Part shown: piece by piece, positions 4,869 through 14,264 of the stretch | How positions within the stretch are numbered: position 1 is the stretch's first letter | Layout of the letters: each line of letters begins with the position of its first letter | Source of the DNA: a virus | IMG/VR virus record: IMGVR_UViG_3300045947_000082 | Span: 1-36,371 of that record | Strand: one strand, 5' to 3' | Length of the DNA: 36,371 nt | The notes under the pieces: generated by a model | Database searches by the model: none | Told to the model about the DNA's origin: nothing | Seen by the model: the letters and a program-made list of their open reading frames with translations, nothing else | Made by a program: the position numbers and the translations under genes

Positions 4869-5186
4869 TCACTCCTTGACTGCGTACTGGTCCCACAAGC
4901 GGAGCACTCCATCCCGCAGTTCTGCCTTTAGAAAGTTGGATTCTAAAAGGTCCTGGGACAGCTCGTAGCCGCTCTCTTCGGCCTCTCCCCCGGTGATCGT
5001 GTGCATTTCAAATTCGCGAAGGTCGATGATTAATTCGCGGAACGCAGACCCTAACGATTTATCCTTGAGAAGATTCGCGACCAGTTCATCCGCGTGAGAG
5101 GCAATCGAGAACGCAAGGGAGATCAGGCGTAACGGGATCAGAAGCGGCTCGCCGGCATCAATACGGTCCTGGTTGTATTTAGCCAA
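4869..5186 (-). CDS. Hypothetical 105-aa protein
   Basis: The frame starts with TTG 5186 immediately after an in-frame stop, with no strong ribosome site. It encodes a helical, acidic protein (LRLISLAFSIASHADELVAN, LGSAFRELIIDLREFEMHT, then ELSQDLLESNFLKAELRDGV). The start overlaps the end of the small leftward frame at 5179-5325, hinting at coupling. It was not recognised. Confidence 0.55.
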   Translation of the reverse strand: MAKYNQDRIDAGEPLLIPLRLISLAFSIASHADELVANLLKDKSLGSAFRELIIDLREFEMHTITGGEAEESGYELSQDLLESNFLKAELRDGVLRLWDQYAVKE

Positions 5187-5602: not shown

Positions 5603-5859
5603 ATGCAGAGACAAAAAGACAATTCGATTGAGAGCAGAGTTTACGTCTACGGGTGCGTCCCGGCGCGGGTGGCGCCGGTCATCAACGAGGACCGGGCGCT
5701 CGCATCAAGCGGGCACGCCAGGCCGCAGCCAGTATGGGCCTCTTCTGGGGCTCCTATAACGACATCGTGCAAAGGGCCGATGCCGGCCGGAAACACGGTG
5801 GGGAACTCCATTTTCGTGGGTTCCGCGGGGAGGGCACCCTCACGGCGCAGATCATGGGA
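5603..5859 (+). pseudogene. Cas12m-like (type V-M/V-U1) effector remnant in two pieces
   Basis: Frame 1 from ATG 5603 contains RVYVYGCVP, which resembles the first strand of compact type V effectors as I remember them. After a frame change, the region 5710-5858 reads MGLFWGSYNDIVQRA, then HFRGFRGEGTLTAQI. This matches the Cas12m (C2c4) pattern recalled as DLYWASFN and HRFDGSGTIAVQL: the aromatic-W-x-S-aromatic-N core and the F-x-G-x-G-T-x-x-x-Q strand. About 100 residues between the pieces and everything after, including RuvC, are missing. The second piece stops where the first CRISPR repeat begins. It cannot cleave or bind as a full effector. The identification rests on short motifs and remembered family sequence. 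Confidence 0.5.
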
Positions 5860-6109
5860 GAAGTGCCCGCGCAGCGGCTTGGTGGCTGCGACGATGAAAT
5901 CAAGGCACACTACTGCCGTTTCTTCGAGTAGAAGTGCCTGCGTAGGGGCTTGGTACCTGCGACCTTCTGGATCAGGTCGAAATTCTCGATCGTGAGATTG
6001 TAGAAGTGCCTGCTCGGGGGCTTGGTTCCTGAGACACCGAGGGCGTTGATGGTGAGGCGCTTTGTGGTTCCATGTGGAAGTGCCTGCTCAGGGGCTTGGT
6101 TCCTGAGAC
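5857..6109 (+). CRISPR. Four-repeat CRISPR array (36-bp repeats, 35/36/38-bp spacers)
   Basis: Repeats lie at 5857-5892, 5928-5963, 6000-6035 and 6074-6109. Consensus parts are GTRGAAGTGCCTG, a 6-bp stem, loop GGCTTGGTT, the stem complement and final AC. The stems are CGCAGC/GCTGCG, CGTAGG/CCTGCG, CTCGGG/CCTGAG and CTCAGG/CCTGAG: each pairs, with wobble or compensatory changes. Repeat length, spacer length and the hairpin near the 3' end fit type V. Repeat 1 is the most diverged and repeat 4 the closest to the solitary copy at 9956-9986, which may mean the leader side is on the right. No cas1/cas2 or intact effector is present, so any use would depend on a host effector. Confidence 0.8.
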
Positions 6110-8591: not shown

Positions 8592-9643
8592 AGGACCTCT
8601 CCCCATTTGTTGAACTGCCTCTGAAATTCGCCCATGACTTCCTCCGTAAATCCCTTCTTCCCCGGCTTCCTCTCGTAGAAGGGCGGCGGCGGTTCGTCGT
8701 AAGCGGATTGGAGCCAGTTTGAGGCGAGAGGGATGTACTGGGGGGACTTCTGCCAGCGGGGGCACTGCCGGTAAACTTGCAGCCGTTCGATGCAGTTTCG
8801 TTTTTGTTGCGGGGAGAGGGCCTCAAACAGCGGTTTAGCCTTCGGGCCATCCAGGTGATCGGGCGGGTACGCCTCCTTGAACGTGGCCCAGGAGGCTGGG
8901 TGCTCGGCAGGGCCTGGGGGCTCGTCAGGGGGGCGAAGAACGAGCGCGGCGGGCTCCTCCTCCTCCTCTTTTCCCTCGTAGGGAGGTTCAGGAACTGCGG
9001 AGGATGAGGATGACTCTTCTTCTCTTCTACTCTCTCTCTTCTTATCAATAAGGATGCGCCCTTCGGAAATGGCCTGTACCAGCAACTTTCGGTGGACAGT
9101 ACGGAGTTCGTTGAGGGCCGTTTTCCAGGCTGTACTGAGTTCCTCCAGGCACTCGATGGATAAAGTACTGTCAACCGGGTCAAGGTCCGAGAATCGGACG
9201 GTGCGGTCTGCTATTTGCCACTTTTGGTTGACAGTACTGTCAACTGACTCGAGGTCTTCAAAGGCGGGCGGACAAGGATCAACATACATTATTCCGTCAT
9301 CATCAGTCCATAGTTGGCCGCTCTCGGAGAGGTGTGCAACCACACGGGACATGTGCCCCTTCCAGATCTCGCCAAGGCCTAGCAACTCGAGGATGTCCTT
9401 TTGCCTGGCCGGGACCATCATCGGCTGGTCGTTCATATCCCGCGGGTAGAACCCCTTGGTGGTTTTCCGGAGGACGGCGCCATCCTCGCTCTTCTCTGGC
9501 CCGCACCATGACCAGAGGACGAGTGCCCAGAAAACGCGGGAACTGAAGCACTGGTCGGGCGCCATCCGGCGCAAGACGACCGCTCTGGACACCTTTGCGA
9601 AGTGGGTGACGCTGGCGAGGGACTTCGGCTTCGGGCGGTTCAC
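8588..9643 (-). CDS. Replication initiator-like protein (first gene of the early operon)
   Basis: The 351-aa product has three parts. The N-terminal region (30-130) looks like a DNA-binding domain (DILELLGLGEIWKGHMSRVV). An acidic linker follows (KEEEEEPAALVL). The C-terminal domain (about 255-340; ASWATFKEAYPPD, QYIPLASNWLQSAYDE) is the type seen at the end of many phage replication/primosomal proteins. GTG 9643 follows AAAAGGGCGG. A perfect 18-bp palindrome lies 18-35 bp upstream, and an identical one lies inside the gene, as expected for an initiator with its own binding sites. Confidence 0.65.
   Translation of the reverse strand: MNRPKPKSLASVTHFAKVSRAVVLRRMAPDQCFSSRVFWALVLWSWCGPEKSEDGAVLRKTTKGFYPRDMNDQPMMVPARQKDILELLGLGEIWKGHMSRVVAHLSESGQLWTDDDGIMYVDPCPPAFEDLESVDSTVNQKWQIADRTVRFSDLDPVDSTLSIECLEELSTAWKTALNELRTVHRKLLVQAISEGRILIDKKRESRREEESSSSSAVPEPPYEGKEEEEEPAALVLRPPDEPPGPAEHPASWATFKEAYPPDHLDGPKAKPLFEALSPQQKRNCIERLQVYRQCPRWQKSPQYIPLASNWLQSAYDEPPPPFYERKPGKKGFTEEVMGEFQRQFNKWGEVL
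9227..9244. promoter_or_regulatory. 18-bp palindrome inside the initiator gene (candidate iteron/origin site)
   Basis: GTTGACAGTACTGTCAAC is a perfect palindrome, inside a 26-bp stretch (9221-9246) identical to 9655-9680. Partial versions occur at about 9094-9102 (GGACAGTAC) and 9164-9174 (GTACTGTCAAC). The cluster within the gene resembles lambda ori, which lies inside gene O. Confidence 0.6.
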
Positions 9644-9660
9644 TGGATACCGCCCTTTTG

Positions 9661-9678
9661 GTTGACAGTACTGTCAAC
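9661..9678. promoter_or_regulatory. 18-bp palindromic operator upstream of the initiator gene
   Basis: A second perfect copy of GTTGACAGTACTGTCAAC, 18 bp before the GTG start. Its position suggests autoregulation by the initiator or binding by a phage repressor. Confidence 0.65.
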
Positions 9679-9955
9679 TGCCGGGCTCTTTTCGTTTCGA
9701 AGTGCGGGAAGTACCACGTTCATCCTGACCCCCTGTGAAAGTAAAAACAATTTCGGGATTGGAAGAACGCTGGGAAGGCCTTATGCTGGAAGGGCGGTAC
9801 GCCTTTCCGGCGCGTTCATCCAACTTGTCGCAGGGAGTTAATCTTGGCGGATTTGGCCCTGCGGTGAGTCTTTCCGGCCGTCGGAGGGGGTGCCCGTCCG
9901 AGGCGCGGCATGGCGCTGCTAGAATGTAGTGCTCTCGCGCCCTCGGCGGAAGAGT

Positions 9956-9986
9956 GTCTCAGGAACCAAGCCCCTGAGCAGGCACT
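9956..9986 (-). repeat. Solitary CRISPR-like repeat (inverted relative to the array)
   Basis: On the minus strand 31 consecutive bases, AGTGCCTGCTCAGG to CCTGAGAC, equal the last 31 bases of array repeat 4. The stem CTCAGG/CCTGAG is kept. No second copy lies within 100 bp. It resembles solitary repeat units carried by phages, some of which act as RNA anti-CRISPRs. Confidence 0.8.
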
Positions 9987-10061
9987 GTAGTGTAGCGGTT
10001 CCAGGCGCCTGCCCTGCGGCGTAGTAGCGGGGCTGGGGCGGCATGATAACCTGCCGCTGCT

Positions 10062-11018
10062 ATGGACACGCAACGGCAACTTTTTCACGCACACGAGATT
10101 GAAAAACTTCAGACGATCCGCACCTACCTGAGCCGGGCCGTGCTCTCCCCGAACACGATCAGCAGCTATCGCTACGACTGGTCGATGTTCGAGGAGTTTT
10201 GCAGCGAGATCAGCCGCCCCTCCCTGCCGGCGAGCGCCGACACGCTGGGCCTCTATGTAGCCCGGATCCTCGATCAGGGGAAGACGGTCAAGACGGCCCG
10301 CCGGCGGGTGTGCTCCGTCAAGCACTACCACCAGCAGGCCGGACTCGCATCCCCGTACACCGATGAGGTCCGGATCCTGCTCTGCGGGGCCACCCGTCAA
10401 CGGCTGGAGCGCCCGGCGCAGAAGGAGCCCCTGCACCTCGAGCAGCTCCGGGCGATCGCCGATGTCCTGCTCCGGACGGACACGCCGGCGGCGGCTCGGG
10501 ACCACGCGATCCTGGTGCTCGGCTTCGTCTCGGCCCTGCGACGGTCGAACATTGTCGCCCTCGACCTTGATGACGTCGAATTCACCGGGCAGGGCGTCAT
10601 TCTCACGATCCGCCGGGAGAAGCAGGACCAGGAGGGAGTCGGGCGGTTTGTCGCACTGCCCAGAGGCGCCGATCCCCGTACCTGCACCTCGACCAGCCTC
10701 CTCGGATGGCTCAGACGGCGCCGACCTGGTCCCGGCCGCCTGTTCACGCGCCTGGACCGCGGGAACGCCGGCGGGCCGATGGATGCGGAGGCCGTCGCCA
10801 AGATCGTCAAGCGCAGCGTGGCTTTGATCGGGCTGGACCCGAAGCTGTACGGAGCCCATTCCCTGCGAGCTGGGTTCGTCACCGAGGCAGCGGAACGCGG
10901 GGTCTCCGACACGCTCATTGCCGCACACACCGGGCACAAGTCCACGCAATCCCTGCGGTTCTACTACCGGAAGCGAAGGCTTTGGACGGGTAACGCGGCC
11001 GCGATGCTCGGTCTCTGA
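10062..11018 (+). CDS. int: Tyrosine recombinase (integrase)
   Basis: The 318-aa product has a SAM-like N-terminal core-binding domain (15-105) and a XerC/D-type catalytic domain. The active-site set is complete: Arg in SALRRSN (160/161), Lys187 in RREK, HSLRAG (His266, Arg269), GHKS (His292) and tyrosine in RFYYR (301/302). It would integrate and excise the phage genome. No good ribosome site precedes ATG 10062. The excisionase-like gene is convergent on the right at 11826-11362. The attP site should be in the adjoining intergenic DNA. Confidence 0.93.
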   Translation: MDTQRQLFHAHEIEKLQTIRTYLSRAVLSPNTISSYRYDWSMFEEFCSEISRPSLPASADTLGLYVARILDQGKTVKTARRRVCSVKHYHQQAGLASPYTDEVRILLCGATRQRLERPAQKEPLHLEQLRAIADVLLRTDTPAAARDHAILVLGFVSALRRSNIVALDLDDVEFTGQGVILTIRREKQDQEGVGRFVALPRGADPRTCTSTSLLGWLRRRRPGPGRLFTRLDRGNAGGPMDAEAVAKIVKRSVALIGLDPKLYGAHSLRAGFVTEAAERGVSDTLIAAHTGHKSTQSLRFYYRKRRLWTGNAAAMLGL

Positions 11019-13533: not shown

Positions 13534-13702
13534 TCGTGTCGTACACGCAAAGTGCCCGGCGTGCCGGTGCTGCGAACTGACGGCCGATGATCCCGGTGTA
13601 CGAGCGCCGGTACTGCGATCCAGGCGAGACGCCTCGGAACCTCGGGCCGGCGCTCATCGTGGAGTTCAAACGACATGCTGGAATTCGCCGGCGCGACGGT
13701 GA
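13496..13702 (+). CDS. Small CPACRCCEL-motif frame, probably a chimeric duplicate
   Basis: ATG 13496 lies inside the end of terS. The product starts MTQDQDQTQQQVDRVV and contains CPACRCCELTA, encoded by a 36-bp stretch (13552-13587) identical to 14153-14188 in the next Zn-type gene. Right after that stretch the DNA switches to a copy of the gene at 16344-16628, read out of frame. The last 35 residues are therefore probably meaningless. Confidence 0.35.
   Translation: MTQDQDQTQQQVDRVVHAKCPACRCCELTADDPGVRAPVLRSRRDASEPRAGAHRGVQTTCWNSPARR
13552..13587 (+). repeat. 36-bp direct repeat (second copy 14153-14188)
   Basis: The two copies are identical over 36 bases and encode CPACRCCELTA in both. 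The first copy joins directly, at 13587, to sequence homologous to 16416 onward, marking an illegitimate recombination junction. Confidence 0.85.
13587..13674 (+). pseudogene. Out-of-frame 5' fragment duplicated from the 16344 gene
   Basis: MIPVYERRYCDPGETPRNLG and PALI match the 16344-16628 protein (MIPVYERRYSDPDETPRNLG). Ten bases replace nine before the next ATG (TTCAAACGAC versus ATGAACGAC), so the rest of the duplicated protein is shifted and starts again at 13675. Confidence 0.65.
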
Positions 13703-14031
13703 CGGCCGTGCCGGATCGGGCGCAAGCGGTTGTCGAGTACCTGATGTATCACTACGCCGGCGGGCACAAGCCCGAGTGGTACGACATGATAACGTGGCTC
13801 GGCATGAACGATTCACGATACGAGGTTCGCAATGCCGAGGTCGAAGTTCTCTTACGCGACATCGGCAAGATAATCGGCAACCGGTTGCCGGAAGGTTGGG
13901 GGTTCACGCTGCTTCTGTTCAGTTTCGGCGAGGGCGGCGATCTGTTCTACATATCCAACGCGCAACGCGACGACATGATCCGATGCATGCGCGAGTTCAT
14001 CGCGAAGCAGGAAGGCAGTAACGGCGCATGA
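13675..14031 (+). CDS. Paralogue of the 16344 protein fused to a GDLFYIS domain
   Basis: The product has 118 aa. The N-terminal half (MLEFAGATVTAVPDRAQAVV to GHKPEWYD) is about as long as, and very similar to, the C-terminus of the 16344-16628 protein. The C-terminal half (RLPEGWGFTLLLFSFGEGGD, LFYISNAQRDDM) is a domain common in phage proteins of unknown function. GTGGAG lies about nine bases before the ATG, so translation can begin here even though the original 5' part is out of frame. Confidence 0.7.
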   Translation: MLEFAGATVTAVPDRAQAVVEYLMYHYAGGHKPEWYDMITWLGMNDSRYEVRNAEVEVLLRDIGKIIGNRLPEGWGFTLLLFSFGEGGDLFYISNAQRDDMIRCMREFIAKQEGSNGA

Positions 14032-14264
14032 AGCGGCGGTTGAGCGGAAGCGGGCGGGCGGTGCGGTGTGATCGGGCGCCGGCGCAGCTTGCGTTCGGGT
14101 TGGTTGCGTTCGAGTTCGATGATCCGCCGGCGCGGCTGTTCCTGGTGCGGAGGTGCCCGGCGTGCCGGTGCTGCGAACTGACGGCCGAGGGAGAGTGCTC
14201 GGGCGCGTGCGCCGGCAATCGGGATCATATCGCCGGGTCCTGCGCCCCGGGTAAAAGGCCATGA
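14028..14264 (+). CDS. 78-aa Cys-rich protein
   Basis: ATG 14028 overlaps the previous stop. The product is basic at first (MKRRLSGSGRAVRCDRA) and has FEFDDPPARLFLV, then CPACRCCELTAEGECSGACA, likely a zinc-binding cluster. It ends in ATGA overlap with the next gene. It supplies the intact form of the motif repeated at 13552. The function is unknown. Confidence 0.55.
   Translation: MKRRLSGSGRAVRCDRAPAQLAFGLVAFEFDDPPARLFLVRRCPACRCCELTAEGECSGACAGNRDHIAGSCAPGKRP

Follow-up and report, generated by a model that had tools for sequence, protein, structure and literature searches.

What is a single CRISPR repeat doing in front of an integrase gene, in a phage that keeps a short array of its own elsewhere in its genome? 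Solitary repeat units are a published class of viral element: 2,103 of them are reported on viral sequences, the functionally tested subtypes named are I-C, I-E, I-F and V-A, and some members are RNA anti-CRISPRs (Racrs), just as the sequence-only reading of this DNA had stated (PMC10651486). The unit considered here lies in a viral stretch of 36,371 nt with a 213-nt end repeat, referred to below as the window (features in Table 1). Among annotated phages no close record was convincing, and no match to a tRNA or known RNA family was found.

Table 1. Coordinates of the solitary repeat, its surroundings and the type V-M remnant in the window
Feature	Positions	Strand	Basis and details
cas12m remnant, piece 1	5603..5698	+	tblastn, L007 Cas12m residues 15-45, 69% identity
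cas12m remnant, piece 2	5701..5859	+	tblastn, L007 Cas12m residues 157-215, 58%; frame differs from piece 1
Mini-array, four repeats	5857..6109	+	5857-5892, 5928-5963, 6000-6035, 6074-6109; spacers 35, 36, 38 nt
Non-coding leader with predicted hairpins, shared with relatives	9740..9949	+	ends just 5′ of the insertion; alignment with relatives
~90-nt insertion carrying the solitary unit	9950..10039		alignment with L010, L011 and L012
Solitary type V-M repeat unit	9956..9986	- (probable crRNA-like strand, AGTGCCTGCTCAGGGGCTTGGTTCCTGAGAC)	31/31 identity to array repeat 6079-6109; strand from G-U usage
Degenerate second repeat copy within the insertion	10007..10033	+ (probable crRNA-like strand)	3 mismatches to 27-nt consensus; matching stem-loop layout
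Tyrosine integrase (phage integrase family)	10062..11018	+	Pfam PF00589 E=4e-14; PHROG integrase

The solitary repeat and its surroundings

A repeat search of the window returned 6079-6109 and 9956-9986 as an inverted pair of 31 nt, 100% complementary and separated by 3,846 nt, and the identity to array repeat 4 claimed from the letters alone therefore stands in full; against the neighbouring array repeat, the match of the solitary copy is 33 nt at 97%. When up to 3 mismatches to a 27-nt repeat consensus are allowed, the window holds six sites (the four array repeats, the solitary unit and a decayed copy), while the reversed control pattern gives none in the same scan, which excludes chance. 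The unit is a single repeat outside an array and within a mobile element, as solitary units are. The earlier description of it as lying alone is right with respect to the array and fails with respect to the decayed copy, which lies only 23 nt away in the opposite orientation. The site had also been called non-coding and close to the integrase, and it is both: it falls between a leader that relatives also have and the start codon of the integrase, and the sole long open reading frame that spans it, on the minus strand at 9816-10949, is antisense to an integrase that Pfam supports. Lack of association with cas genes is a mark of solitary units; from this one to the broken cas12m the distance is 4.1 kb.

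Other short elements occur in the same region. About 14 nt before the insertion, positions 9920-9936 read GCTAGAATGTAGTG and are identical in all three relatives discussed below; the L010 version reads TAGAA-7nt-TTCTA, resembling a tyrosine recombinase core site and possibly an attP. Identical 26-nt copies at 9221-9246 and 9655-9680 contain the palindrome TTGACAGTACTGTCAA and are perhaps a repressor operator pair. Further along, duplicated segments (13552-14188 and 13587-13783/16416-16611) lie to the left of and within the structural region, their similarity being 36 nt at 100% and about 200 nt at 80%.

Type V-M repeats and a broken cas12m

The repeat had been assigned to type V, and this can be sharpened to type V-M. 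Systems of this kind (formerly V-U1) have cas12m and then an array on one strand, with 36-nt repeats (PMC11013384, PMC10442227); pre-crRNA is cut within the repeats and tracrRNA is not needed (PMC11013384), and an enrichment of these systems in plasmids, with occurrence in some prophages, has been described (PMC11656645). When viral contigs were scanned with the repeat pattern, the window's repeat turned up in long arrays elsewhere, and arrays with matching repeats lie beside intact cas12m genes in L007, L016, G014 (a record of 179 kb) and L017 (a genome bin of Nitrospirae), so that on comparative grounds the solitary repeat is of the type V-M (Cas12m) family. The L007 array ends beside a 616-aa protein that matches the PADLOC Cas12u1 model (E=5e-107) and a Cas12m chain in the PDB (E=1e-88). 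In G002, a 180-kb record, the array paired with cas12m is more divergent, and in 37 fetched viral loci encoding Cas12m relatives the detected arrays usually lie directly downstream, on the cas12m strand. Weaker pattern matches (L019; L025, L028, L030 and L031) were set aside as probably chance-like, most having no stem. Strong V-M effectors were found in one of 593 sampled genomes from two phyla, namely at the known Nitrospirae locus; a positive control was missing from the second search, so this scarcity does not prove absence.

The six stem pairs of the repeat covary, each taking several pair types across 60 distinct repeats. Read on the crRNA strand, G-U pairs outnumber the mirror A-C combinations by 40 to 6, a count that comes from mutually related repeats and so gives a strong lean and not a test. 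The lean is toward a crRNA-like strand that is plus for the window array and minus for the solitary copy, the latter being antisense to the integrase. The solitary copy has a perfect stem, and two of the array repeats have drifted; the minus strand of the copy is predicted to fold into the crRNA handle hairpin, with the stem that array repeat 4 forms.

The mini-array consists of 36-nt repeats, partly degenerate, with a period of 71-74 nt. A protein-coding reading of it was rejected because periods of 71, 72 and 74 nt break frame across the four repeats. The array directly abuts the cas12m remnant on the same strand, with cas12m in front as in L007. No intact cas12m was found in the window, which has only the two short out-of-frame pieces (the PADLOC Cas12u1 model independently recovers the second, at 5698-5874, E=9.5e-7). 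This layout, together with the homology, suggests that the array is the remnant of a phage-borne V-M locus. It resembles type V-M CRISPR-Cas12m in repeat family, in the order of cas12m and array on one strand and in its 36-nt repeats (PMC11013384, PMC10442227); unlike a working V-M system, it has a broken cas12m, a short array and a solitary copy 3.8 kb off and inverted. The sequence-only reading was correct that the phage has a mini-array; the array is, however, not simply borrowed from a host, since the phage's own broken cas12m abuts it. It is like viral CRISPR mini-arrays in being a short array within a virus, and unlike them in that three spacers and degenerate repeats stand behind a broken cas12m and were probably not borrowed alone (PMC11656645).

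None of the three spacers had a convincing match in the phage records or the fetched loci, and spacer 2, searched with degenerate positions, had no match in viral contigs. On its minus strand spacer 2 (5964-5999) encodes NLTIENFDLIQK, which resembles the RuvC-II motif (ExFDL) of Cas12m, and 16 of 17 nt agree with the cas12m of L016, a weak hint that it was perhaps acquired from a rival's cas12m.

Gains of V-M units among relatives

Three relatives (L010, L011 and L012) were found through the integrase, at 74% identity. All three lack 9950-10039 and keep both flanks, the leader from 9746 to 9949 on one side and the integrase on the other, so the unit appears to have come by insertion, and recently; clean loss in all three relatives is less likely. 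The insertion site is not conserved. The sequence-only reading had named absence from flank-keeping relatives as one half of what would count against a role, and that absence is what the relatives show; yet the L010/L011 lineage has another unit about 0.7 kb away from the window unit's site. L010 and L011 are near-identical and form one lineage, and their V-M repeat lies within the integrase gene, in an insertion of 54 nt that preserves the reading frame (L010:6662-6715) and is missing from L012 and the window. Its stem differs from the window stem by paired changes, and it is therefore not the window copy moved. Each of the two records contains one repeat and no cas12m match, the L011 record being a fragment. 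Alignment of these genomes thus shows V-M units gained twice independently, in one small phage group and in the same module.

Palindromic insertion elements, for example the Rickettsia palindromic elements, are short hairpin elements inserted in frame, and the L010/L011 unit is like them in this respect. It is unlike them in that the element is the CRISPR repeat of a Cas12m system and in that a single insertion inside an open reading frame is shown. Viral solitary repeats are already known; less usual here are that the repeat is of subtype V-M, that the array adjoins a broken cas12m and that a sister lineage has an independent insertion in its integrase gene.

In other V-M loci, sense-direction repeats lie upstream of cas12m: L064, L065, L067/L079, L071, L074/L075 and the bacterial bin L017: one unit about 90 nt 5′ of the cas12m ATG in L064 (5864), two tandem units in L065 (5399-5470), a small array in L071, repeats at 5732-5905 in L067 and a repeat at 5051 in L017. 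Further units in G014, some with leader-like sequence, precede other genes. The recurrence in several unrelated V-M loci suggests that cas12m may be controlled by its own repeat, possibly as self-regulation, and makes repeat-based control plausible in the family. G001, a phage with an intact V-M locus, has stray repeats at 4959-4985, 39335-39361 and 49327-49353 (L021, L007 and L022), all inverted relative to its array, and a 321-aa open reading frame takes its final codons, stop included, from one of them. An Acidobacteria bin carries two tandem copies 42 nt apart, almost spacerless (L018:3888-3956), and no cas12m was found in that genome; in a Thermomicrobiaceae bin (L020:5590) a repeat-like unit lies between two identical 24-nt direct repeats.

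Possible roles of the solitary unit

By analogy with Racrs, the solitary unit may be an anti-CRISPR-like RNA decoy for Cas12m, a reading that we favour only tentatively. Its minus strand, if transcribed, would give an RNA with the crRNA repeat handle and no useful guide. Such an RNA would compete for Cas12m of host, plasmid or rival-phage origin and, having the handle and missing the guide, would occupy it as Racrs occupy their own effectors (PMC10651486). The sequence-only reading had conjectured that the phage might both exploit and block a host type V system. Like those units, the window unit is a lone family repeat in a viral genome with its hairpin retained; unlike them, it is of type V-M, antisense to the integrase and without a recognisable promoter, and its phage also holds a broken cas12m and a mini-array. 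A consensus scan of 9600-10400 on both strands, which covered sigma-70-type promoters, found none, and so none in the 250 bp ahead of the unit on its crRNA strand, where one would be expected for a Racr. This, the antisense position and the unconserved site weigh against a decoy, as do the strong effectors in just one of 593 genomes (with the second search lacking a positive control). Counted for it are the matching arrays beside intact cas12m genes, the phage's own cas12m remnant, the insertion that relatives lack, the intact stem amid drifted array repeats and the covariation of the repeat stem. That L010/L011, whose records have no cas12m match, gained a unit independently points the same way. 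Nearly as likely as a decoy is a neutral relic, a repeat copy that recombination or an error in replication spread from the decaying V-M locus and that is now functionless. The broken cas12m and partly degenerate array would fit this, as would the unconserved site of the solitary copy, the lack of a sigma-70-type promoter in the same scan, the inverted decayed copy adjoining the unit and the inverted stray copies that are likewise spread across the G001 contig; an intact solitary stem set against two drifted array repeats fits it less well, and so does the independent gain of a unit near the same gene by L010/L011.

The remaining readings give the repeat a more specific task. It is unlikely, with some features in its favour, that the unit controls the integrase, its plus strand forming an anti-repeat hairpin in the leader that pairs with crRNA repeats or alters the fold, so that expression would depend on V-M crRNAs. 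The unit does lie just 5′ of the integrase ATG and downstream of a conserved structured leader, the L010/L011 unit also has this orientation and is part of the integrase mRNA, and one G001 unit is about 45 nt 5′ of an open reading frame, again in the same sense. However, crRNA-type pairing is found on the minus strand only, the relatives manage without the unit and shuffled sequences fold as well as the 90-nt insertion. It is more doubtful still that V-M units are small mobile insertions recurring in or beside phage integrase genes, with integrase and lysogeny choice responding to Cas12m or its crRNAs. The repeats that precede cas12m in a number of V-M loci would also allow a crRNA-like natural guide, in which repeat and adjoining sequence direct Cas12m to a phage promoter; this is very improbable for the window unit, as the adjoining sequence has no guide-like self-target in the phage that beats chance (92 of 100 shuffled versions match as well), an outcome expected of a decoy. 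Least probable is a tracrRNA anti-repeat, which the inversion relative to the array might bring to mind and which is disfavoured. Anti-repeats are usually shorter than a 31/31 match, and the unit lies 3.8 kb from the V-M locus. Type V-M is moreover reported to work without tracrRNA (PMC11013384).

A solitary viral repeat is now tied to the DNA-binding, non-cutting Cas12m systems, and a V-M unit is seen arriving as an insertion in a phage whose own V-M locus is dying. The wider set of loci also suggests that V-M repeats in phages are often found singly ahead of cas12m, which would be a testable sign of self-control. If active, the solitary unit in front of the integrase would be an RNA by which Cas12m is inhibited in nature.
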